A program made the position numbers and the translations under genes. DNA of 64,000 bases from Novipirellula aureliae. Its GTDB lineage: Bacteria > Planctomycetota > Planctomycetia > Pirellulales > Pirellulaceae. The stretch's first letter is position 1; every line of letters begins with the position of its first letter. The notes under the pieces are model-generated. The model was not told the DNA's origin. It saw only the letters and a list, made by a program, of their open reading frames with translations, and did not search any database. Positions 418 through 55,642 of this stretch are shown here, one piece after another. The stretch lies in the NCBI RefSeq assembly GCF_007860185.1, contig NZ_SJPY01000007.1, positions 372,001 to 436,000 on the forward strand, written 5' to 3'.

Positions 418-792
418 ATGACCAAAGTTCAGATTTACGACAAAGCCATGTGCTGCTCGACCGGCGTTTGCGGGCCGCAAGTTGATCCCGTCTTGCCAAA
501 GTTTTCCGCTGATCTCGATTGGCTGAAAGCGCAAGGCCACGACGTTGTTCGTTTCAACCTGGCTCAAGACCCGACCGAGTTCGTCAAGAACGCGACCGTG
601 CAAAAAATGCTCGCTGACGAAGGCGTCGAGTGCCTGCCATTGGTAATCGTCGACGATCGTGTGGTCAGTCGCAGCGAGTACCCATCACGGGGAAATTTGG
701 CAATGTGGGCCGGCACTGCAGTCAAACCAAGAGCGACCCTGCCGATGGCGTCCGACTCGGGATGCTGTGGTGGCGACACGGGTTGCTGCTGA
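418..792 (+). CDS. arsD: Arsenite metallochaperone / repressor ArsD
   Basis: 124-residue ArsD. In characterised systems ArsD binds arsenite with three cysteines and hands it to the ArsA ATPase; it is also a weak repressor. Cys12, Cys13 and Cys18 (MCCSTGVC) are all present, and the C-terminus carries two further vicinal pairs, Cys116-117 and Cys123-124 (GCCGGDTGCC), as in the plasmid R773 protein. The reading frame is open further upstream to 235, but the ATG used here has a GGAG at 406-409 with 8-nt spacing and gives the usual family length. arsA follows after about 30 nt, so the two are probably co-transcribed. Confidence 0.93.
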   Translation: MTKVQIYDKAMCCSTGVCGPQVDPVLPKFSADLDWLKAQGHDVVRFNLAQDPTEFVKNATVQKMLADEGVECLPLVIVDDRVVSRSEYPSRGNLAMWAGTAVKPRATLPMASDSGCCGGDTGCC

Positions 793-823
793 TTCGATTT
801 GCTTGCACACCAGGAGACTTGCG

Positions 824-2599
824 ATGAAATTCTTAGAAACGCCGACGCGGAACTTGTTCTTCACCGGCAAAGGTGGAGTCGGCAAAACTTCGATGGCCTG
901 CGCGATTGCGGTTCAACTGGCTGATCGCGGTTTGCGAGTATTGCTCGTTTCGACCGATCCGGCATCGAACCTTGACGAAGTGCTCCGAACGCCGCTGGCG
1001 AGTCACCCGACGCCGATAGAATCGGTGCCAAACTTGTTGGCGATGAACCTTGATCCCGAGGCGGCGGCTAAAGAGTATCGCGAACGGATGGTCGGCCCCT
1101 ATCGTGGCGTCTTGCCTGACGCGGCGGTCGCAAGCATGGAAGAACAATTCTCAGGTTCTTGTACGCTAGAGATTGCCGCGTTCGATGAGTTCGCAAAATT
1201 GCTGGGCGACAAAGAAGCAACGTCGCAGTTCGATCACGTTGTTTTTGATACAGCCCCCACTGGTCACACGTTGCGTTTGTTGACGCTGCCGTCGGCTTGG
1301 TCGGGATACATCGAGAACAACACGACGGGTACGTCCTGTCTCGGGCCGCTTGCTGGCTTGCAGGCTCAGACATTGATCTACAAACAAACCGTCGATGCAT
1401 TGGCAGACGGCGACTGCACGACGTTGGTGCTGGTCACACGCCCCGAACCGTCGGCGTTTCGTGAAGCTGCCCGGACGAGTAGTGAGTTGCAAGAGCTGGG
1501 CGTTCACAATCAGCACTTGATCGTCAACGGCGTTTTCAAGAACCAGACGCCGACCGATGAAATTGCAACGGCGATGCAGCGTCGGGGTGACGAGGCAGTC
1601 GCGTCGATGCCCGAAACGATCGCGGGCCTCGATCGCACTTCGGTCCCTCTAGCGTCCGGCGGATTGATGGGCGTTGATTCGCTTCGTCGTGTCGGGCAAG
1701 CCGAGTTGAAAATTCAATCTCCCACACTTCCTACTCCCCATCTCCCAGACTATCCCAATGGCCTTGGCTCTTTGGTTGATGAGCTGTCTGCGGTTGGCCA
1801 TGGTGTGATCTTGGCGATGGGCAAGGGGGGTGTTGGCAAAACGACGGTCGCGGCTTCGGTTGCGGTGGCGTTAGCCGAACGTGGCTTTGACGTTCACCTT
1901 TCGACCACCGATCCGGCGGCTCATGTTTCCGCGACAATCGCAGCCGACGAACTGCCCGGTTTGTCCGTGGGGCGAATTGACCCGGCCAAAGAGACTGCCG
2001 ACTACACCGCCGAAGTAATGCAAACGGCGGGGAGAGATTTGGACGCGCCGGGGAAAGCCTTGCTCGAAGAGGATTTGCGTTCGCCATGCACCGAAGAAAT
2101 TGCGGTGTTCCGTGCGTTCGCCAAAGCGGTCTCGAAAGGCGAAAACGGGTTCGTCGTTCTTGACACGGCACCGACAGGACACACGATTTTGTTACTCGAC
2201 TCGGCCTTGGCATATCATCGCGAAGTGACTCGGCAAGCGAGCCAAATGCCCGAGTCGGTTGAACAGTTGTTGCCGCGATTGCGTGACCCCGATTTCACGC
2301 GAGTCTTGGTGGTGACGTTGCCCGAAGCGACTCCCGTTCACGAAGCCGCACGATTGCAACAAGACCTACGGCGAGCGGAGATTGAACCGTTCGCGTGGGT
2401 CATCAACCAAAGTCTCGTCCCGTTGGCAGTGACTGATCCGACACTGCGTCAGCGGCAACAACACGAGTTGCCGTTCATCGAAGAAGTCAAATCGACACAT
2501 GCAAGTCGCGTTGCGTTGGTTCCTTGGCAAAGCGAACCGCCAACCGGACTCGCAGGATTACGCCGCATCGTTGCGGCGGAGTCATCGCTTACTCAATAA
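824..2599 (+). CDS. arsA: Arsenite-stimulated ATPase ArsA
   Basis: 591-residue tandem ATPase that takes arsenite from ArsD and energises efflux. Two deviant Walker A loops (GKGGVGKT) lie at residues 15-22 and 333-340, and each half has the signature DTAPTGHT. The three metalloid ligands known in the R773 enzyme are at identical positions: Cys113, Cys172 and Cys422. The frame stays open upstream to 659 through arsD, but AGGAG at 812-816 and the N-terminus of homologues support this ATG. ArsA is classically paired with ArsB; here it accompanies an ACR3-type carrier, a combination known in other bacteria. A linker of about 25 residues rich in Pro (around residue 305) joins the halves. Confidence 0.95.
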   Translation: MKFLETPTRNLFFTGKGGVGKTSMACAIAVQLADRGLRVLLVSTDPASNLDEVLRTPLASHPTPIESVPNLLAMNLDPEAAAKEYRERMVGPYRGVLPDAAVASMEEQFSGSCTLEIAAFDEFAKLLGDKEATSQFDHVVFDTAPTGHTLRLLTLPSAWSGYIENNTTGTSCLGPLAGLQAQTLIYKQTVDALADGDCTTLVLVTRPEPSAFREAARTSSELQELGVHNQHLIVNGVFKNQTPTDEIATAMQRRGDEAVASMPETIAGLDRTSVPLASGGLMGVDSLRRVGQAELKIQSPTLPTPHLPDYPNGLGSLVDELSAVGHGVILAMGKGGVGKTTVAASVAVALAERGFDVHLSTTDPAAHVSATIAADELPGLSVGRIDPAKETADYTAEVMQTAGRDLDAPGKALLEEDLRSPCTEEIAVFRAFAKAVSKGENGFVVLDTAPTGHTILLLDSALAYHREVTRQASQMPESVEQLLPRLRDPDFTRVLVVTLPEATPVHEAARLQQDLRRAEIEPFAWVINQSLVPLAVTDPTLRQRQQHELPFIEEVKSTHASRVALVPWQSEPPTGLAGLRRIVAAESSLTQ

Positions 2600-2630
2600 C
2601 GAACATCGATTTGCCCAAGGACCAAAACAA

Positions 2631-3059
2631 ATGACGAAAAAGAATGTTCTGTTTCTCTGCATCGGAAATTCATGCCGTAGCCAAATGGCCGAAGGATGGG
2701 CGAGACACTTTCACGGCGATACCATCGAAGCGTACTCAGCGGGCATCGAGGCTCACGGAATGAATCCTAATGCGATGCAGGTGATGAAGGAGGCCGGCGT
2801 GGACATCTCGAACCAGTCGTCGAAACTGGCGAGTTCGCTCACGGACGTCCCACTCGATCTGGTCATCACCGTGTGCGGTCACGCAGATGAGAACTGTCCG
2901 GCCTTTCTTACGAAAGCCAAGCTCGTCCACGTCGGCTTCGACGATCCGCCCAAACTCGCCAAGGAAGCCGCCAGCGAGGAAGAAGCACTCGATTGCTATC
3001 GCCGCGTACGCGACGAGGTTCGTTTGTTCGTTGAGAAAGAACTGCCGAAGTTGCTGTAG
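2631..3059 (+). CDS. arsC: Arsenate reductase, thioredoxin-coupled (LMW-PTPase type)
   Basis: 142-residue low-molecular-weight phosphatase fold enzyme that reduces arsenate to arsenite, the substrate of the pump encoded upstream. The P-loop CIGNSCRS supplies Cys10, Cys15 and Arg16, and Cys82 and Cys89 (VCGHADENC) provide the disulfide relay. These four Cys positions equal those of staphylococcal pI258 ArsC, which points to thioredoxin rather than glutaredoxin as electron donor. The frame is open upstream into arsA, but this ATG gives the normal N-terminus and starts 31 nt after arsA. It is the last gene of the operon. Confidence 0.95.
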   Translation: MTKKNVLFLCIGNSCRSQMAEGWARHFHGDTIEAYSAGIEAHGMNPNAMQVMKEAGVDISNQSSKLASSLTDVPLDLVITVCGHADENCPAFLTKAKLVHVGFDDPPKLAKEAASEEEALDCYRRVRDEVRLFVEKELPKLL

Positions 3060-3170: not shown

Positions 3171-3245
3171 CTAGGCGACGACTTTCGTGACGACACCCGA
3201 ACCGACGGTTTTGCCGCCTTCTCGGATGGCGAAGTGGTCGCCATC
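3171..3245 (-). pseudogene. Remnant of EF-Tu (tuf) 3' end
   Basis: Read on the minus strand this stretch ends [17 protein letters not shown] followed by VVTKVVA and a TAG stop, which is the highly conserved C-terminal strand of elongation factor Tu. Upstream in the same frame only about ten further residues look plausible (VLFLEIS), and they no longer match domain 3. No start codon or earlier tuf sequence is present. It is therefore a truncated fragment lying convergent to arsC, probably left by a recombination at a tuf locus. Confidence 0.75.
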
Positions 3246-3457
3246 GCTGATCTCCAGGAACAACACCTTCGGAAGACTTGACCGAGTATTAGAAACGGTG
3301 CTTCATAGGTCGATTTGAGTGAGTGAGCCTTTGATATGTGCTCCGATTCGGCAATTTGCAACGCCATTTTCAAGATCAGCGCAGAACGATAGCCAGCTAA
3401 GGTTCGAGATGCTTCGTTTTTAGGTCCACAGGCTAGGCCGCGGAGCTGGGCGATAGG
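3246..3457. other. Non-coding spacer
   Basis: Between the tuf remnant and the left repeat array no reading frame has protein-like composition and I see no RNA gene or clear terminator. Confidence 0.5.
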
Positions 3458-3656
3458 TTCAGTTAGGGACTAGGTTCAGTTAGGGACAGAGCATTTCAGT
3501 TAGGGACAGAGCATGATTCTGGCGGAGAGTCAGTTAGGGACAGAGCATTTCAGTTAGGGACAGAGCATGATTCTGGCGGATTTGCCTTTTCCCTAACCGA
3601 GGTTCAGTTAGGGACAGAGCATGATTCTGGCGGATTTGCCTTTTCCCTAACCGAGG
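3458..3656 (+). repeat. Left-end array of the transposase element (nested truncated copies)
   Basis: Six copies start with the same tip, TTCAGTTAGGGACAGAGCAT or a shortened form, at about 3458, 3475, 3495, 3530, 3549 and 3603. Each breaks off at a different inner point: after GGGAC, after GCAT, after GGCGGA, after GCAT, and twice after CCGAGG; the last continues into the transposase leader. The long form can fold: GTTAGGGA near the tip pairs with TCCCTAAC about 28 nt inward. The tip is the inverse of the tip repeated at the right end (ATGCTCTGTCCCT). Confidence 0.85.
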
Positions 3657-3706
3657 TATACGATTCCTGGTGATTCTGCTGATGCTTTTCTCTCGGGAGG
3701 TGTGTG

Positions 3707-4753
3707 ATGGTTCGGTTGGCACGTAGCGAAGTGTTTGATCCGCATGAGGTCGTTATCGCCCATCTGTACAATCGGACCTGCCGACGCTGTTTCCTGATGG
3801 GAAATGACCAAGTGTCCGGCAAAAACTTCGACCACCGGAAAATCTGGATCGAAAAGTATCTGCAACAGTTTGCAGAATTTTTCTCTTTAGATTTGCTAGC
3901 TTTTTCCATACTAGACAACCACCTCCACTTGATCCTAAGATCGCGGCCCGATCTGGTGGCGACCTGGAGCGATAAAGAGGTGGCTCGGCGCTGGTTGATG
4001 CTCTGTCCACACCGCCGCAAATCCGACGGGTCGCCTTTGCCCCCAAGCGAGACAGAACTCAAATCGATCGCTGGTTGTCCAATCAAATGCCAAGAAATCC
4101 GCGAGCGGCTGAGCAGTTTCAGTTGGTGGATGCGGCTGTTGTGCCAACGCGTTGCGATGCGAGCGAATCGCGAGGAACAGGAGTCGGGCCGGTTCTTCCA
4201 AGATCGCTACCGTGCAACTCGATTGACGGACGAAGCATCCCTGCTGGCCTGTGCCGCTTACGTGGATTTGAACCTGATTCGTGCCGCGATGGCGGAAACG
4301 CTGGAGCAGAGCGATCATACGTCGGTGCAAAAACGAATCGAGGCGATGAAAAGTGAGTCACCAAGCGAAAACAAGCCGGATGCTTTCTTGGCACCTCTGT
4401 CGATCGATGAGCAGCTTGATCCCGTAGGTCCCTGTGCTAGCGACAGCGGCAAGCGTTGTAGTGATAAAGGCTTCTTACCGATTTCGCTCGTGGATTACTT
4501 GAAGCTACTCGATTGGACGGCTCGGCAGGTGGCGCCGGGCAAACGCGGAGTGACGCCTTCGGCCGCACCACCGATTTTGGTTCGGTTGGGACTCGAGCAA
4601 GCGACTTGGTGCGAACTGGTGAAGGACTTTGGGAAATTGTTCTGCAGCATTGCTGGACGCCCCGAGAGTGTCGATTCGATGCGTTGTCACCGCACGCACC
4701 GCCGCTACCATCTCCGCCGCCGCGCCCGCGAGCTATTGACGCTCCCGGACTGA
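3707..4753 (+). CDS. HUH (Y1) transposase, REP-associated / IS200-like family
   Basis: 348-residue transposase. The HUH pair His72-His74 (DNHLHLIL) that holds the catalytic metal is present, and the segment RFFQDRYRATRL followed by AAYVDLNLIRAAM matches the Y-xx-LN-x-xRA block of REP-associated tyrosine transposases. Such enzymes nick and join single strands at hairpin-bearing ends. ATG was preferred over an adjacent in-frame GTG because GGGAGG at 3695-3700 lies 6 nt upstream. The N-terminal half (1-210) holds the catalytic domain; the C-terminal ~130 residues are a basic extension I do not recognise. Arrays of its own ends flank it on both sides, so it is probably a recently active element. 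Confidence 0.85.
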   Translation: MVRLARSEVFDPHEVVIAHLYNRTCRRCFLMGNDQVSGKNFDHRKIWIEKYLQQFAEFFSLDLLAFSILDNHLHLILRSRPDLVATWSDKEVARRWLMLCPHRRKSDGSPLPPSETELKSIAGCPIKCQEIRERLSSFSWWMRLLCQRVAMRANREEQESGRFFQDRYRATRLTDEASLLACAAYVDLNLIRAAMAETLEQSDHTSVQKRIEAMKSESPSENKPDAFLAPLSIDEQLDPVGPCASDSGKRCSDKGFLPISLVDYLKLLDWTARQVAPGKRGVTPSAAPPILVRLGLEQATWCELVKDFGKLFCSIAGRPESVDSMRCHRTHRRYHLRRRARELLTLPD

Positions 4754-4782
4754 GTGCCCCTTCTTCGATTTCCCTCCTTTTC

Positions 4783-5670
4783 GTGACGCTCTTTGAGCTG
4801 CCCCCAGGATGAAGGTACGCACCCAATACGGCCATTCCGAGGAAAAAAGCCTATCTCACTGGCTTACACACACGCTATTTGACGATCCGGTGCAATAGCA
4901 AAGCAAAAATCCTGACATAGTCTGCTCGGGGTGTTACTGCGTCACCTGACATGATGCTCTGTCCCTATGATTTGCTGTGACGCTCTTTGAGCTGCCCCCA
5001 GGATGAAGGCACGCACCCAATACGGCCATTCCGAGGGAAAAAGCCTATCTCACTGGCTTGCACACACGCTGTTTGACGATCAGGTGCAATAGCAAAGCAA
5101 AAATTACGATATAGTCTGCTCGGGGTGTTACTGCGTCACCTGACATGATGCTCTGTCCCTATGATTTCCTCTCACTGGCTTACACACACGCTATTTGACG
5201 ATCCGGTGCAATAGCAAAGCAAAAATCCCGACATAGTCTGCTCGGGGTGTTACTGCGTCACCTGACATGATGTCTGTCCCTTAGATTCTGTGCTCGGGGT
5301 GTTACTGCGTCACCTGACATGATGCTCTGTCCCTTAGATTCTGCGTCACCTGACATGATGCTCTGTCCCTATGCTCTGTCATACGGCCATTCCGAGGAAA
5401 AAGCCTATCTCACTGGCTTGCACACACGCTATTTGACGATCTGGTGCAATAGCAAAGCAAAAATCCCGACATAGTCTGCTCGGGGTGTTACTGCGTCACC
5501 TGACATGATGCTCTGTCCCTTAGATTCTGGTCTGCTCGGGGTGTTACTGCGTCACCTGACATGATGCTCTGTCCCTTAGATTCTGACTGCGTCACCTGAC
5601 ATGATGCTCTGTCCCTTATGCGTCACCTGACATGATGCTCTGTCCCTTAGATTTGCTCCTTAGATTTGCT
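4783..5670 (+). repeat. Right-end array of the transposase element (nested 5'-truncated copies)
   Basis: About eleven copies share one right terminus, GACATGATGCTCTGTCCCT followed by ATGATT or TAGATT, but begin at different inner points. Copies at 4783-4966 and 4977-5160 are 184 nt long; the rest start at about 5170, 5291, 5341, 5371 (10 nt only), 5381, 5531, 5586, 5619 and 5658. Copy one begins 30 nt after the transposase stop, so it is the true right end. Small differences between copies (GATCCGG, GATCAGG, GATCTGG) show they are not all of the same age. No gene lies here. Confidence 0.88.
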
Positions 5671-5685
5671 GTACAGAATCGATTA

Positions 5686-6198
5686 ATGACTCCCCGCAAA
5701 GCTTCCTCTACCTATCGGATCCGCCACTATCGACCTGCCGATGCCGTGCCGCTGGCGGAACTCTTTTGTGATTGTGTTCACCGAGTCAACTGGCGTGACT
5801 ACTCCACTGAACAGCTTCAGGCTTGGGCGCCGGCGGAAATAGATCTGGATGCATGGCAAAAAAGATTCAACGATCGAATCGCCATCGTTGTGGAGTCGGG
5901 CACGGAGATCGCCGGTTTTGCGGACATGACGCTGGCCGGGCATCTGGACCGACTCTTCGTATCCGCTGATCACCAGCGACGAGGCGTCGGCAAGACGCTT
6001 GTCGATGAACTGAAGCTTCGAGCGAGTAATCTGGGGATCGCAGAAATCACGACCGAGGCCAGCATCACGGCAAAACCTTTCTTCGCCGCTCAAGGTTTTA
6101 CGGTTGTTCGCGAACAAAGTGTTTTGTGTCGGGGGCAATATCTGACAAATTACCGTATGCGATCCCAGGTTGAAATCAAAATCAATTCCCCGTTGTGA
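5686..6198 (+). CDS. GNAT-family N-acetyltransferase
   Basis: 170-residue single-domain GNAT. The acetyl-CoA pyrophosphate loop is RRGVGK with the preceding strand LDRLFVSADHQ and following helix TLVDELKLRA; the C-terminal strand pair ends PFFAAQGFTVV. The overall pattern resembles the YafP-like group, but the substrate cannot be read from sequence. The frame is open to 5632, yet those extra codons lie inside the repeat array, so the ATG just outside it is the native start. The array ends only 15 nt upstream, so the original promoter may have been displaced. Confidence 0.8.
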   Translation: MTPRKASSTYRIRHYRPADAVPLAELFCDCVHRVNWRDYSTEQLQAWAPAEIDLDAWQKRFNDRIAIVVESGTEIAGFADMTLAGHLDRLFVSADHQRRGVGKTLVDELKLRASNLGIAEITTEASITAKPFFAAQGFTVVREQSVLCRGQYLTNYRMRSQVEIKINSPL

Positions 6199-6303
6199 TG
6201 AAAATACCTTAACAGCTTTGTGGGGTGTGCGAAATTGTTTGCCATTAAATAGCGACAAACGTTTCCGGTGTTATTAACCCTCCGTCCCTAAGCCATTCAG
6301 ATC

Positions 6304-6648
6304 ATGTCAGAATCAGAGATGCGTGAAGTCTATCGGGCTGCTGATGACAATGAGGCGTATTTGTTATGCAGCGAACTACAAAATGAAGGCATCGAGGCAC
6401 GTGTTGTTGGGAACCCTATCCGTGGCATCCTCAACCACCTCGACATCGGAGCGACCGCACCGAGGATTCTGGTTCCCCCAGACCGCTATGAGGAAGCCCG
6501 CAAAATTGTAGTCGCCCATGAGTCAAGGCAAAAATTGAATTTAGACTCAGCGGAACAATGGGAAGGTGTTCACGGTGGCGAGCTTAATGAACCAACCTTT
6601 GACATTTGTTGGCAGTGCCAAACCGAACATGCTTCTCCAGCCGAATGA
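6304..6648 (+). CDS. DUF2007 domain protein
   Basis: 114-residue small soluble protein. The N-terminal 70 residues match DUF2007 (putative signal transducing protein): VYRAADDNEAYLLCSELQ, then GIEARVVG and the closing PDRYEEARKIV helix. A C-terminal extension ends with a CWQC pair, which in relatives belongs to a zinc-ribbon-like tail, although only two cysteines are visible here. The function is unknown. It stands alone, 105 nt after the acetyltransferase. Confidence 0.75.
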   Translation: MSESEMREVYRAADDNEAYLLCSELQNEGIEARVVGNPIRGILNHLDIGATAPRILVPPDRYEEARKIVVAHESRQKLNLDSAEQWEGVHGGELNEPTFDICWQCQTEHASPAE

Positions 6649-6664
6649 TCGTTATTCATCGTGT

Positions 6665-6823
6665 TTAATCCTGGCTCGGAATCATTATGTCGGCGAGTGT
6701 AGCGATTGCCAGAATCGCCGTGAGCCATCGTCCGCCGATGAAGAGAAACCAACGAACCCAGATTCGATTGTCACCCAGTTGGTCATGATAGTGCTCGATC
6801 AAAGATCCGCTATAGTGGTTCAT
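6665..6823 (-). CDS. Possible small membrane protein
   Basis: Possible 52-residue protein with a polar N-terminus and one hydrophobic stretch (FLFIGGRWLTAILAIATLA). The charge distribution is compatible with a one-pass membrane peptide, but there is no recognisable family and no strong ribosome binding site. It lies between DUF2007 and the NPYRPP gene on the opposite strand and could be chance. Confidence 0.25.
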   Translation of the reverse strand: MNHYSGSLIEHYHDQLGDNRIWVRWFLFIGGRWLTAILAIATLADIMIPSQD

Positions 6824-6868
6824 GGAAACAGCAGTACAGCAGCGATCCGCCATTTCTAAACAGGAAGC

Positions 6869-7225
6869 ATGAGGATGACCGACAACGCAAATCCTTACCG
6901 ACCTCCGAATGAAATAGAACCGCACCAGAGTTGGTGGTCGAAGTTGCGTGGTCGGTTCAGCTCGAAGGGGCCTATTGTCATATCGAGACCGGCTCCAAAC
7001 TTCGCTGGTGGCGAGGCGATCATCTGTGAAGGAATCGCGTTCTTCGTCAATCTGGAAGAACCGTCCCGGTTATACGCTGCGTCCCCGTCCACGGACACCA
7101 GCGACCAACGGATGGACTTTATTCTAGCGGAGGCCATTGGGCAATGCGGTGTTGCCAAAGTATCCGATCAACAGCGCGACTGCATTGGAGCTAGGCCGGA
7201 ATGGCATGTACTGGAGGAATTCTAA
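6869..7225 (+). CDS. Small planctomycete protein with NPYRPP N-terminus, 3' end overrun by a repeat
   Basis: 118 residues beginning MRMTDNANPYRPP, the N-terminal signature seen on many small planctomycete proteins of unknown role. A second ATG at 6875 has better spacing from AGGAAG at 6862-6867 and may be the true start. The middle has a short hydrophobic patch (AIICEGIAFFVNL) and no known domain. From 7188 to the stop the coding sequence lies inside the ~295-bp repeated element, so the last 11 to 12 residues and the stop codon come from that element. The gene may therefore be truncated. Confidence 0.5.
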   Translation: MRMTDNANPYRPPNEIEPHQSWWSKLRGRFSSKGPIVISRPAPNFAGGEAIICEGIAFFVNLEEPSRLYAASPSTDTSDQRMDFILAEAIGQCGVAKVSDQQRDCIGARPEWHVLEEF

Positions 7226-7482
7226 AACGTGAAACATTCTTCCGCCGAGCTTGTCTCGGCGGAGGAAACAAGTGGCGGCCACAAACCGCACGCCGCCCGA
7301 AAGAAATTCGCCCCACCCCCACGAATCGCCTCCGGCGATTCGTGGGGGTGAGGCGAGCGTGGGATTTTGCGTTCATGGTAGCTGCCATCTGTTGCTCTGC
7401 CCGGACAAGCCGGACGGAAGCAGGCCCCCCTGTGAAACTCACTCCGTTTTTCTTAAGTCCACGCCATTCGAGCTAGGCCGGA
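7188..7482 (+). mobile_element. ~295-bp hairpin element with terminal inverted repeats, copy 1 (MITE-like)
   Basis: It is about 90 percent alike to 30378-30674. Ends carry inverted repeats: GAATGGCATGTACT at 7199-7212 (two changes) against AGTCCACGCCATTC at 7456-7469. GAGCTAGGCCGGA occurs directly repeated at both borders. Inside, 7309-7330 pairs with 7334-7355 in a near-perfect 22-bp stem with loop TCC. No transposase frame is present. It is either a non-autonomous element or a structured-RNA gene. Confidence 0.75.
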
Positions 7483-7751
7483 GGCCGAAACATCCGCTGC
7501 CGGTGGAAATGGATGGGTCAGCCCGCGGAGAGGTGAAACCACCGACCAACCCTTCTCGCTTCTATCGGAACGCATGTAAATTGCATCGACCGGCCAGGTC
7601 GTAGCGGAACGAGCGGCTGCGACTACGAACCAAACAGCAAATCCACTACGGGTTGGTCTCTTGGGGGAGAGGTGTTTTGTGCGTAAGATATTGACAGTGG
7701 GATGTTCTCCTTCTCCATTCAGGATTCGTTTGCTGTCCACCTGAATCCGCT
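7483..7751. other. Non-coding spacer
   Basis: No convincing gene. It includes ATCCACTACG at 7641-7650, reminiscent of the dispersed GTAGTGGAT hairpin family, and presumably the promoter of the downstream pair. Confidence 0.4.
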
Positions 7752-8444
7752 TTGCTGTTCCATTCAAGAGGCCCGAGTTTGCCAGAGAATACTGATTTTT
7801 TATCGTGGCGACGGCTAGCAACGGTGGCGATGATTCTGTTGGGGCTTGGGCTGGTGTTCTATTTTGGAAATCGGACGGTTGAGTCGTACCGACAGGTACG
7901 GTTCATCCAAGAACAAGGCTTTGATAGCGGTGACGCTGATCTGGACGCAATTCGACCGTGGATGACGATCCACTTCGTTGCTGCGGCTTATGCGGTGCCG
8001 AAGGAGTATATCTACGCCGAGTTGGGAATTGATCCTGATCGCAACCGACGCGATATTGATCTTCGACGTTTGAATGACGATTTGAAGTTGGGACATTCCT
8101 CACCGCGATCCGAACTTCCGTTGATAAAACGTCTTCGCAATATCATCCTCGACTATCGTGCCGATCCTGTCGCGACAGGCCTCAGCGAACTGCGTGATTG
8201 GATGACGTTGGAGTATGTTGCCAACAGTACAGGAATACCCGCATCAACGATTGTCGATGACCTTGGCTTGGATGACCGGGCACGCGAGCTATCGGCCCCG
8301 AACGGTTCCGATCGAAAGATCGAGGTCAACGTCCATCGGCCGCTGTTCGATTTAGCTCGTGATTTGCACTACCCGGGTGGACCGGGTGGGTTAGGTGAAG
8401 CGATCGAGCGTGTGATTGCAGAACGATCGGTGGAACCACAATGA
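7752..8444 (+). CDS. Membrane-anchored protein with two WMT-type repeats, coupled to a DedA-like gene
   Basis: 230 residues if the TTG at 7752 is used; in-frame GTG (7824) and ATG (7830) are alternatives, but they would begin within the membrane segment. One N-terminal helix (VAMILLGLGLVFYFG) is followed by two copies of a ~35-residue module: IRPWMTIHFVAAAYAVP...ELGID and LRDWMTLEYVANSTGIP...DLGLD. Each module looks like a small helical bundle with HTH-like spacing. I know no function. The stop overlaps the next start by ATGA, so the two proteins are translated together and probably act together at the membrane. Confidence 0.7.
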   Translation: MLFHSRGPSLPENTDFLSWRRLATVAMILLGLGLVFYFGNRTVESYRQVRFIQEQGFDSGDADLDAIRPWMTIHFVAAAYAVPKEYIYAELGIDPDRNRRDIDLRRLNDDLKLGHSSPRSELPLIKRLRNIILDYRADPVATGLSELRDWMTLEYVANSTGIPASTIVDDLGLDDRARELSAPNGSDRKIEVNVHRPLFDLARDLHYPGGPGGLGEAIERVIAERSVEPQ

Positions 8445-44248: not shown

Positions 44249-45808
44249 TTATTTCGTCGTAATGGGCAGCAAAACGTCGTAGATCCACTCGGCGCTAAAG
44301 AACAACATGACGCTCAACAAGGCAGTGATGCAAAGCGGGACGACGCACATCCAAGGTGCCTCCTGAATCCCGCTGCCTGTGTCCCCACTGTCTGTGTCCC
44401 CGCTGCCTGTGTCCCCACTGTCTGTGTCCCCGCTGTCTGTGAAATTGTGGTCGCCGATGGAATCGGTTTCTAACGGAGCCATAAACGCGCGAATGGGGAT
44501 CGGGATCAAGTAGGCGATATTCAATAATGAACTAATCATCAATGCCGCCAACAACAGATAGAGGTGTGCCTCGACCGTTCCAATCGCCAAAAACCATTTG
44601 CTCCAGGCGCCACCGCCCGGTGGCAATCCGATGATGCTAACCGCGGCAACCAAGAAAGCAGCAAACGTGAATGGCATTTTCCGCCCCAACCCTCGCAGTT
44701 CACTGATGTTCGTCTTATGAGCGGCGACGTAGATCGCACCCGCACAAAAGAAGAGCGTGATTTTGCCGACCGCATGCATCGCAATGTGCATGCCACCACC
44801 GATCACACTGTTCGGAGTCGCCAACGCCGCGCCAAGCGTGATGTAGGCTAACTGGCTAATGGTGGAGTAAGCCAAGCGAGCTTTCAGATTATCTTTGCTC
44901 ATTGCAACCAATGAAGCGATGAGTATCGTCGCGCCGGCAACGTAAGCTAACCAAACGCTAACGCCACTGAGCTGTAGCAAATCGATGCCGAAAATGTACA
45001 CGACCACTTTTAGCACCGAGAAGACGCCGACCTTTACGACGGCGACCGCGTGCAACAGAGCACTAACGGGTGTCGGAGCGACCATCGCAGCGGGCAGCCA
45101 ACGATGAAATGGCATGAGCGCGGCCTTGCCAATGCCAAATGCAAATAGCCCCAGCAAGACGCCGAGCTGCAGATCATTGATTTTACCATCGGCATACGCA
45201 AAGTTTAAAATCCCACCAGGCGTAAAATCGAGCGTACCGGCTAGAAACCAAGTCCAGGCGACCGCCAACATGAAGAACGCGATCGATGTCGAAAGCAATA
45301 TTCCCAAGTAGACTCGCCCACCATCGCGTGCTGCCTTGGTGCCGTGATGGGTAACGAGCGGGTAGGTCGACACGGTCATCAATTCATAAGCGACAAATAA
45401 TGTAAAAAGATTGCTGGAGAACGCGGCAGCCATTGCGGCGAAAATCGCAATCGCGAAACAGCAATAGAATCGAGTTTGATGCTGTTCATGATGACCACGC
45501 ATATAGCCGATTGCATAAACACTTGTCAGAATCCACAAGCCGGATGCAACGAGTGCGAACAGCATTCCAAGCGGTTCGACTTTGAAAGCGATTTCGAAGC
45601 CTGGGATCATTTCGCCCACGGACCACATCGGTCGCTCGCCCGCAAAGACATGACTTGCCAATCCACAAGTGACCAAAAACAGCATGCCAGAAACCGCTAA
45701 CATGCACGCTTCACGTACGTTTGGCCATTCACCAAACGCATTGATGAGCAGCAACGCGACCAATGGCAAAACCAGAGCTGCGACGATCAAGTTCTCTGGG
45801 GTCATCAT
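44249..45808 (-). CDS. Mrp-type antiporter, second D-like subunit
   Basis: 519 residues, proton-channel subunit with FVAYELMTVSTYPLVTHHG, GIGKAALMPFHRWLPAAM and HAVGKITLFFCAGAIYV. A cytoplasmic-side loop near the C-terminus carries a 15-nt tandem repeat encoding DSGDT/GSGDT units at 44371-44441. Its start overlaps the previous D subunit by ATGA. Confidence 0.85.
   Translation of the reverse strand: MMTPENLIVAALVLPLVALLLINAFGEWPNVREACMLAVSGMLFLVTCGLASHVFAGERPMWSVGEMIPGFEIAFKVEPLGMLFALVASGLWILTSVYAIGYMRGHHEQHQTRFYCCFAIAIFAAMAAAFSSNLFTLFVAYELMTVSTYPLVTHHGTKAARDGGRVYLGILLSTSIAFFMLAVAWTWFLAGTLDFTPGGILNFAYADGKINDLQLGVLLGLFAFGIGKAALMPFHRWLPAAMVAPTPVSALLHAVAVVKVGVFSVLKVVVYIFGIDLLQLSGVSVWLAYVAGATILIASLVAMSKDNLKARLAYSTISQLAYITLGAALATPNSVIGGGMHIAMHAVGKITLFFCAGAIYVAAHKTNISELRGLGRKMPFTFAAFLVAAVSIIGLPPGGGAWSKWFLAIGTVEAHLYLLLAALMISSLLNIAYLIPIPIRAFMAPLETDSIGDHNFTDSGDTDSGDTGSGDTDSGDTGSGIQEAPWMCVVPLCITALLSVMLFFSAEWIYDVLLPITTK
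44371..44441. repeat. 15/30-bp in-frame tandem repeat
   Basis: Two exact 30-nt units (44371-44400 and 44401-44430), each made of two near-identical 15-mers (CGCTGCCTGTGTCCC type), followed by a partial unit. Length divisible by three keeps the antiporter frame open. Confidence 0.85.
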
Positions 45809-54183: not shown

Positions 54184-54248
54184 AGGGTGCCCCGTCTAGC
54201 CAAGCCCGTCTAGCCAAGCCCGTCTAGCCAAGCCCGTTAGCCAAGCCC
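54184..54248. repeat. 14-bp tandem repeat covering the uxaC 3' end
   Basis: About four units of CTAGCCAAGCCCGT, the innermost lacking C of CTAG, in tandem. The stop codon and last residues of uxaC lie in the first units; the rest are outside the gene. Confidence 0.85.
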
Positions 54249-55642
54249 GTGAACTGCTTCGCGTTGGCGTAGCAGATGTCCCGGACCATGCCGCCGACCA
54301 AATCGAAGTCGCCCGGCAGTTGGCCCAACTGCATATCGCGGCCGAGTAAATTGCACAGTACACGCCGGAAGTATTCATGACGTGGATAGGACATAAACGA
54401 ACGAGAATCGGTCAGCATCCCAACAAACCGCGAAAGTAACCCCAGGTTTGCTAGCGTTCGTATTTGCCACTCCATCGCCTCCTTTTGATCCAGGAACCAC
54501 CACCCCGAACCGAATTGCATCTTGCCCGGAATCGATCCATCTTGAAAGTTACCCACCATCGTTGCAAAGGCGTAGTTGTCTGCAGGGTTCAAGTTATAGA
54601 CGATCGTTTTCGGCAAAGCGTTTTCTTGGTCGAGCCGATCGAGGAGCTGACCGAGGGGTGCGATCTGCGGGGTATCTGCGATCGAATCGAACCCGGTATC
54701 AGGACCGACGGAGTTGAACAAGCGAGTGTTATTGTTACGGCGAGCTCCGAGGTGCAATTGCATCGTCCAACCTTTTTCAGCGTTCCAACGCCCAACCGAG
54801 AGCAGGATGTGGCTGGCGAACTGGCCCATTTCCACGCTCGTCACGGCCGTTCCGGAACGAGCTTTGCCGAAGATCGCTGCTGCCTCGGCATCGCTCGGAA
54901 AGTCTGCATAACATTTCTCCATGCCGTGGTCGGAGAGACGCCCACCGATTTCATGAAAGAAATCGTGGCGTTTCTTGAGTGCATCAAGGAACTCATCCAG
55001 CGTAGAAATACTCTGGCCCGTAGCTCGCTCCAAGGCATCGACCCAATCATTCCAAACTTGTGGTTGATGCACGTTGAACGCCTTGTCAGGGCGAAACGTC
55101 GGAAAAACCTTGGTGCTGAGCTCCGACTTGGCGATGGCTTGGTGATACGATAGATCGTCCGTTGGATCGTCTGTCGTGCCGACCACTTTGACCTTGAATC
55201 GATTCAGGATGCCATGCGCGGAAAGCTCCGCTGAAGCGAGTAGCTCGTTGGCTTGCTCCCAAACCGCCGGTGCGGTTTGTTCGTTCAGCAACACGTCGAT
55301 GCCGAAATAGCGTTTCAGCTCCAAGTGCGTCCAGTGATACAGCGGGTTGCACAAGGTTTGTGGTACCGTCCGCGCCCAAGCCAAAAACTTGTCATACGGA
55401 TCGGCATCCCCGGTGCAGAGTCGCTCTTCAACCCCTGCGGCCCGCATTGCTCGCCATTTGTAGTGGTCGCCTTCGAGCCAAATCTCAAACAAATTATTGA
55501 ACTGGCGGTTTTCCGCCACATCCTTCGGCGGCAAATGACAATGGTAATCCAAAATCGGTTCGCTCACGGCGTAATCATGAAACAGCCGACGGGACGCCTC
55601 GGTCTCCAACAGAAACTCTTCGTGAATAAATGGAACCTTCAT
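54224..55642 (-). CDS. uxaC: Glucuronate isomerase
   Basis: 472 residues. UxaC interconverts D-glucuronate and D-fructuronate, the first step of uronate catabolism. Metal-site motif YHCHLPPKDVAENR near the N-terminus, then HWTHLELKRYFGI, QLHLGARRNNNTRLF and GMLTDSRSFMSYPRHEYFRRVL are present. The C-terminus GLANGLG is encoded by a 14-bp tandem repeat. No other uronate pathway genes are adjacent. Confidence 0.95.
   Translation of the reverse strand: MKVPFIHEEFLLETEASRRLFHDYAVSEPILDYHCHLPPKDVAENRQFNNLFEIWLEGDHYKWRAMRAAGVEERLCTGDADPYDKFLAWARTVPQTLCNPLYHWTHLELKRYFGIDVLLNEQTAPAVWEQANELLASAELSAHGILNRFKVKVVGTTDDPTDDLSYHQAIAKSELSTKVFPTFRPDKAFNVHQPQVWNDWVDALERATGQSISTLDEFLDALKKRHDFFHEIGGRLSDHGMEKCYADFPSDAEAAAIFGKARSGTAVTSVEMGQFASHILLSVGRWNAEKGWTMQLHLGARRNNNTRLFNSVGPDTGFDSIADTPQIAPLGQLLDRLDQENALPKTIVYNLNPADNYAFATMVGNFQDGSIPGKMQFGSGWWFLDQKEAMEWQIRTLANLGLLSRFVGMLTDSRSFMSYPRHEYFRRVLCNLLGRDMQLGQLPGDFDLVGGMVRDICYANAKQFTGLANGLG

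Follow-up and report, generated by a model that had tools for sequence, protein, structure and literature searches.

Beside a transposase gene of Novipirellula aureliae lies a run of direct repeats that raises the question of how an array of nested, truncated transposon ends arises next to the element itself. The repeats occupy positions 4783-5670 of the window, by which we mean the whole 64,000-nt stretch of contig NZ_SJPY01000007.1 analysed here, and they are in register at one end, as recovered by both a direct-repeat search and a tandem-repeat search (TRF). A preliminary description of this DNA attributed them to a HUH transposase that re-inserts its own ends. The origin and spread of the REP, BIME and TIR repeat families is an open question; REP literature from 2010 to 2021 proposes transposase-made 3′ ends, and a sequence record of that reaction was not found in the available portions of this literature.

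The repeats adjoin a mobile element of 1.36 kb with one long gene and inverted tips of 13 bp, left and right being perfect reverse complements, as had been described. The product of this gene is a Y1 HUH protein resembling REP transposases, and no second gene was found within the element when long genes were looked at. The predicted fold of the focal protein is Y1 HUH. Residues H72, H74, Y185 and N189 are invariant in an alignment of 28 transposase sequences, all of which (28/28) match the REP_Tyr_transpos model NF047646 at an E value of 1e-3 or better, and 11 of which match Pfam Y1_Tnp at 0.01 or better. The focal transposase itself scores below the curated cut-off of NF047646 (33.6 versus 80 bits) and below the gathering score of Y1_Tnp (18.3 versus 23 bits). 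The element is mobile and multicopy: the genome has eight full copies of it, with 97-100% protein identity, plus fragments. The 9-nt tip core AGGGACAGA occurs 123 times in the genome, versus 13 times for the reversed control. No target duplication was seen by eye at the element copies, and since no empty site was found, the insertion boundary is unproven. On contig C25 (locus L012), three elements stand in a row, two of them full and one present as its right end, with a few hundred bases between them. Upstream of the focal element (659-3059), the genes resemble, by eye, a tandem anion-pump ATPase and a low-molecular-weight phosphatase-like arsenate reductase, of which only the phosphatase family (PF01451) was tested. 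The features of the locus, in window coordinates, are as follows.

3455-3609, minus strand: left array, with extra tips beginning at 3482, 3502, 3536 and 3556 and a partial AGGGAC at 3465
3610-3656, plus strand: left end of the element, tip AGGGACAGAGCAT beginning at 3610
3707-4753, plus strand: Y1 HUH transposase gene, 348 aa from the ATG at 3707 (a GTG at 3704 is also open)
within 3707-4753, plus strand: HUH motif NHLH (H72, H74) and tyrosine motif YVDLN (Y185)
4754-4966, plus strand: right end of the element itself, with its tip ATGCTCTGTCCCT ending at 4966
4967-5160, plus strand: tag ATGATTTGCT and unit 2 (184 nt)
5161-5281, plus strand: tag ATGATTTCC and unit 3 (112 nt by eye; tip one base short)
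5282-5334, plus strand: tag TAGATTCTG and unit 4 (44 nt)
5335-5370, plus strand: tag TAGATT and unit 5 (30 nt)
5371-5520, plus strand: partial tip ATGCTCTGTC (5371-5380) and unit 6 (~140 nt by eye)
5521-5576, plus strand: tag TAGATTCTG and unit 7 (47 nt)
5577-5616, plus strand: tag TAGATTCTG and unit 8 (31 nt)
5617-5647, plus strand: tag TA and unit 9 (29 nt), the last tip ending at 5647
5645-5670, plus strand: 13-nt micro-duplication CCTTAGATTTGCT (TRF), then flank

Eight exact plus-strand occurrences of the 17-mer CATGATGCTCTGTCCCT lie between 4950 and 5647, and with up to two mismatches it has 11 matches in the window, versus 0.01 expected. A ninth tip, ending at 5281, is one base short. 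The right array contains nine tips and two fragments in total, and the first tip (ending at 4966) belongs to the element itself and is no added copy; the eleven copies of the preliminary description are therefore eleven pieces, one of them the element's own end. The copies do begin at differing internal points, as it had stated: the eight added units extend 184, 112, ~140, 47, 44, 31, 30 and 29 nt inward from the tip, where the 112 and ~140 nt were measured by eye, a script having split both units at a base change or indel. The boundary common to the copies, which had been placed at the tip itself, lies elsewhere. Each copy overruns the tip into a short piece of flank, mostly TAGATTCTG or ATGATTTG, before the next copy begins. 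The left array (~3455-3609) mirrors the right one with the tip reverse-complemented, and the outward tag AACTGA is present on six of six left tips, the element's own and the partial tip counted.

Such tags, defined as the run-on into flank after a tip, are found genome-wide. Among 98 junctions in 24 arrays, as split by script, the tag measures 6-12 nt in 68 and falls outside this range in 30 (12 shorter and 18 longer, where some of the longer ones are composites or were divided by an indel). Of the 122 tips in these arrays, 102 carry the modal 6-nt tag of their own array, and 6-nt tags are identical in 279/391 pairs within arrays (0.71) versus 272/6990 pairs between arrays (0.039). The start points of the units, in contrast to this boundary, wander from 6 to 362 nt inside the tip, with a median of 15.5 nt; units of 16 nt or less make up 50 of the 98, a count that includes the pieces of focal units 3 and 6 and of L011 unit 2, which the script broke up where a base change or indel occurred. 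The first tip of L035, too near the contig end, was left out of the tag counts and the junction split and was kept in the end alignment and the tag-body comparison. In the latter, right-end tags track the similarity of the element bodies (Mantel r 0.37, 21 of 5000 permutations as good), whereas left-end tags do not (Mantel r 0.12, 843 of 5000). The 80 junctions with tags of 12 nt or less divide into 13 with an overlap of at least 3 nt with the outermost flank, 27 with an overlap of 0-2 nt, 21 with 1-4 unmatched nucleotides, and 19 with a tag unlike the outermost flank. Repeated locus tags at other copies include the following.

C7, 576.6k: GGGCTCTG
C4, 569.5k: AATGCCGTCC
C1, 1184k: TGGCTGTG
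left of the C7:577k copy, top strand: ATAACACCA

Mirror arrays are present at left ends and also at ends without an adjoining gene. The isolated tips that the preliminary description had suggested looking for elsewhere in the genome do exist. Lone ends L030, L034 and L037 bear arrays and have no transposase match nearby, which fits action in trans. The array at L037 is uniform, with six TGTCTCA units. L026 has a similar array, but an 82-codon gene fragment lies 0.8 kb away.

The transposase protein was found in 30 of the 60 genomes searched, the own genome included. Among 46 of 80 fetched loci, those with a long match and flanking sequence (some near contig ends were dropped), 35 have a TGTCCC tip downstream and 37 have the inverse tip upstream. 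At least two tips on one side are present at 26/46 loci from 15/24 genomes, versus 1/46 for the reversed control, and the five nucleotides after TGTCCC are identical in 151/487 pairs within arrays versus 140/12514 between loci. GGGGACA tips occur in many relatives. Seven of the 46 loci (L057, L062, L092, L096, L097, L106 and L118) have no tip on either side, and some of these tipless loci have other repeated motifs. As a separate observation, a transposase relative in genome G021 (L143) adjoins a different repeated motif, CATCGACTCCAG, in nine copies.

The flank next to the right tips contains a candidate cleavage site. Counting one tip per end, CT stands at positions +4/+5 after the tip in 12 of 24 right ends of the own genome, and in 10 of 17 distinct right-end tags (binomial P 1.2e-8). 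Half of the right ends (12/24) do not have CT, and AT is found in eight of these; a T at +5 is present in 20/24 and absent in 4/24. The 19 left ends, read outward, all have G at +5. In Neorhodopirellula pilleata, whose copies are an independent family, NNN-CT follows the tip in 9/9 right ends (eight near-identical copies and one diverged), +6 is C in seven of the nine, and divergence starts at +7. REP transposases are described as making their cut next to the REP at C|T (for one of them, CA serves as well), and cleavage by TnpA_REP as yielding a 5′ phosphotyrosine and a 3′-OH (PMC8266576, available portions). Given the NNN-CT after right tips and the published C|T cutting, cleavage between +4 and +5 would be the natural prediction for this transposase, and the tip-NNN-CT spacing makes that prediction a precise one. 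We note that array tags mostly reach 1-8 nt beyond C|T, so that the nick and the break in copying should not be the same point. A brief extension of the 3′ end, bridging C|T and the end of the tag, is our conjecture here.

The sequence of the units themselves bears on their source. Sixteen units were compared with element ends, and 15 were scored, as an inverted left end in L018 has no end of its own. Five of the 15 are strictly nearest the end of their own locus, three are tied, and seven are nearer another copy. The five are L011 units 2 and 3 (6 versus 18 and 1 versus 6 differences), focal unit 3 (2 versus 5), L018 unit 4 (0 versus 1) and focal left unit 2 (0 versus 1). Three of the foreign-leaning units are clear, namely L035 unit 2 (3 versus 18), L009 unit 3 (2 versus 7) and L018 unit 5 (18 versus 24), and the remaining four differ by one or two bases. 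L009 unit 3 joins a foreign body to the local tag. In C19 (L035), the right end is identical over 120 nt to the end at C1:333421 and has the 10-nt tag ATACTCGTTT in common with it, and the further unit with 3 differences from the C5:500818 end and 18 from its own bears the 7-nt tag of C5. C19 and C25 have 102 bp of last tags and flank in common and differ in array content, which indicates that arrays change. An earlier form of our proposal, in which re-priming occurs most often in the same end, was dropped because of the seven units nearer another copy.

The observed array anatomy, tags, mirror symmetry, multicopy spread, predicted fold and recurrence in other species are best explained, in our judgement, by a transposase that nicks just outside the tip, with the released 3′ end then being lengthened and priming again in the same or another end. 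We give this explanation about an even chance, and we infer the nick, its position, and the extension and re-priming steps. The transposase would recognise the tip and, a few nucleotides beyond it, nick the strand reading ...TGTCCCT-NNN-C|T; for the left end, it would use the other strand or a mirrored site. By analogy with other HUH enzymes, the 5′ end of the flank would be held on the tyrosine, and the tip would keep a free 3′-OH. After extension by a few nucleotides into the flank, this 3′ end would be released and would prime again, now at any of various positions within its own end or within that of a different copy, and everything from the priming position through the tip and tag would be copied anew. 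Repetition would produce nested, 5′-truncated ends with a common tip and tag at either end of the element, and also at lone ends, where the transposase would act in trans, with units that could range up to nearly whole elements. The explanation is supported by the boundary that stays in the flank while start points wander, by the locus specificity of the tags, by the arrays at left and lone ends, by the CT at a fixed place after right tips here and in N. pilleata, by the units nearest their own end and the C19 units from elsewhere, and by the recurrence of arrays in relatives. It is weakened by the tags that overrun C|T, the right ends without CT (12/24), the tags outside 6-12 nt (30/98), the uneven match of tags to the outermost flank, the seven units nearer another copy, the foreign body with local tag in L009 unit 3, the left tags that do not track the element body, and the seven tipless loci among relatives.

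The strongest rival, and the one closest to the idea of the preliminary description, is self-targeted transposition, in which single-stranded excised ends or elements insert beside tips, precisely at the tag side and imprecisely at the other, thereby producing truncation. The HUH transposase and the arrays at both ends stand as had been described, whereas self-insertion is retained here as a rival that we regard as unlikely, though with more in its favour than any other. Two pairs among the eight full copies sit within 1.6 kb, and the units nearer another copy, the three clear ones above all, speak for it. The C11 array, where right-end units stand together with inverted left-end ones that have a left-type tag, the C19 units with tags of other loci, and genome G008, where a tip and tag are followed by nearly a whole second element without its left tip, point the same way. 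Against it, the own locus tag is repeated in most tips (102/122), five of the 15 scored units are strictly nearest their own end and three are tied, and about half of the units (50/98, at 16 nt or less) are short for excised pieces.

That short units prevail, that some arrays are uniform (L037), and that overlaps of at least 3 nt occur at 13/80 junctions would also suit a passive origin without the enzyme, through slippage during replication or unequal recombination at a fragile sequence, where short units expand like a minisatellite. Under such a process, which we consider improbable, it is hard to account for one boundary mostly 6-12 nt outside the tip when the other wanders over hundreds of nucleotides, and for arrays at both ends, at lone tips and in 15/24 genomes; moreover, the tested right ends show no stronger folding than shuffled DNA. 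Tandem insertion of whole elements with later deletions, the units being stubs of older copies, has still less to recommend it and only a slight chance, even though tandem copies exist and C19 contains an older end cut down to its last 25 nt beside other units. Between right-array units no directly oriented left-end remnant, other than whole elements, was seen by eye in the printed loci (the arrays judged in this way are those of the fetched loci), and tags repeat within an array where separate insertions should bring separate ones. The genome is in 40 contigs, several of which (C11, C19 and C25) end inside elements, which might suggest an assembly artefact, but the focal array, whose units each have distinct variants, is enclosed in a contig of 598 kb, and the same anatomy appears in many unrelated assemblies, including the single-contig G008. 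We regard an artefact as hardly credible.

The element belongs to the TIRYT/TIRtron kind described in 2013, in which terminal inverted repeats with GGGGWSAS enclose a Y1 HUH transposase gene (Di Nocera et al. 2013, PMC3733652). The available portions of that account mention TIRtron repeat families and end clusters, state that for some TIRtrons the tips form a genome repeat family, and list R. baltica as one of the hosts rich in tyrosine transposase genes and in repeats that flank them. The likeness here consists of a Y1 HUH transposase (HUH motif, catalytic tyrosine, predicted fold), perfect 13-bp inverted tips, where AGGGACAG fits seven of the eight GGGGWSAS positions, and tips that form a genome repeat family (123 versus 13). 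Nested truncations, flank tags and a cleavage-site dinucleotide do not appear in those portions, and the element here differs in having eight near-identical full copies. In RAYT/REP systems, a transposase lies between inverted ends, tandem arrays stand beside rayt genes, and rayt 3′ ends are captured in BIMEs; RAYTs are linked to REP palindromes and have no IS-like multicopy mobility, and in 2010 priming from a transposase-made 3′-OH was put forward for REP systems (Nunvar et al. 2010, PMC2817692, available portions). REPIN tandem arrays have been described as including flanking sequence (Bertels and Rainey 2011, PMC3116915, available portions). Inverted ends and arrays beside the gene are also found here; the multicopy element, the one-ended nested units and the locus-specific tags set the present case apart.

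A REP hairpin of the GTAG type was not apparent. The right ends of two copies show no stronger folding than shuffles (z 0.71 and 0.08; on rerun 0.53, 0.23 and 0.01), and GTAG or CTAC is found within -40 to +12 of the tip in only 2/32 ends. When two left ends were read outward, folding exceeded that of shuffles just for the one with the AACTGA tag (z -2.9; its top strand z -1.9). We also observed that in this left end (3600-3660) the stem, with the same z of -2.9, is formed with an inner TTAGGGA that also occurs in copies with other tags and might be the remnant of an ancestral hairpin or a guide. By description only, the focal protein resembles TnpA_Y1 subclass 2.3 (for which Quentin et al. 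2018, PMC6006769, list a median of 325 aa, several copies in each genome, and the motifs NH-x-H and YVDLN(P)) in its length near the median, its several copies and its motifs. The available portions of that study report no REP-like sequences with subclasses 2.1 or 2.3, in contrast to the defined tips and arrays here. The predicted Y1 HUH fold, and the lack by eye of a target duplication, are likenesses to IS200/IS605 elements (IS608, ISDra2), from which the element differs in having inverted tips instead of a clear hairpin at the tested right ends and no second long gene. In one-ended transposition of Helitrons and IS91, a HUH enzyme generates one precise and one imprecise end, but the enzyme class is different. 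Titles and abstracts of the Helitron/IS91 literature gave no arrays of this kind, and a description of tagged, nested, one-ended arrays was not found in the literature covered, most subscription journals being outside its scope.

We therefore describe the locus as a mobile TIRYT-type element with repeatedly re-copied ends, in which the anatomy is firm and the enzymatic route is one that we put forward with confidence evenly divided. More tentatively, and with the balance somewhat against it, the HUH transposase may have a second mode, a nick-primed re-copying of tips that captures a few flank bases, whereby tips would become self-amplifying, heritably tagged and able to persist or grow without the element. 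If this mode is true, it would be a sequence-recorded route for the birth of REP- or TIR-type families from a transposon end. The arrays may preserve a record of the reaction, as each unit retains its start point, tip and flank tag, so that the order, polarity and source of events should be readable, and the copies in many planctomycetes are natural replicates.

Other repeats were observed in the course of this work. A 15-nt tandem repeat at 44369-44441 of the window contains CTGTGTCCCC, which is like the tips of related elements in other species, and may be a coding repeat. At 54191-54250, a 14-nt repeat, CCCGTCTAGCCAAG, is present in 4.4 copies near TGTCCCC. In the 3200-7800 flank of L013, a stretch of ~140 bp (query 3757-3898) matches many places in the genome and both congeners, mostly at 87-96%, and is an unrelated dispersed repeat.
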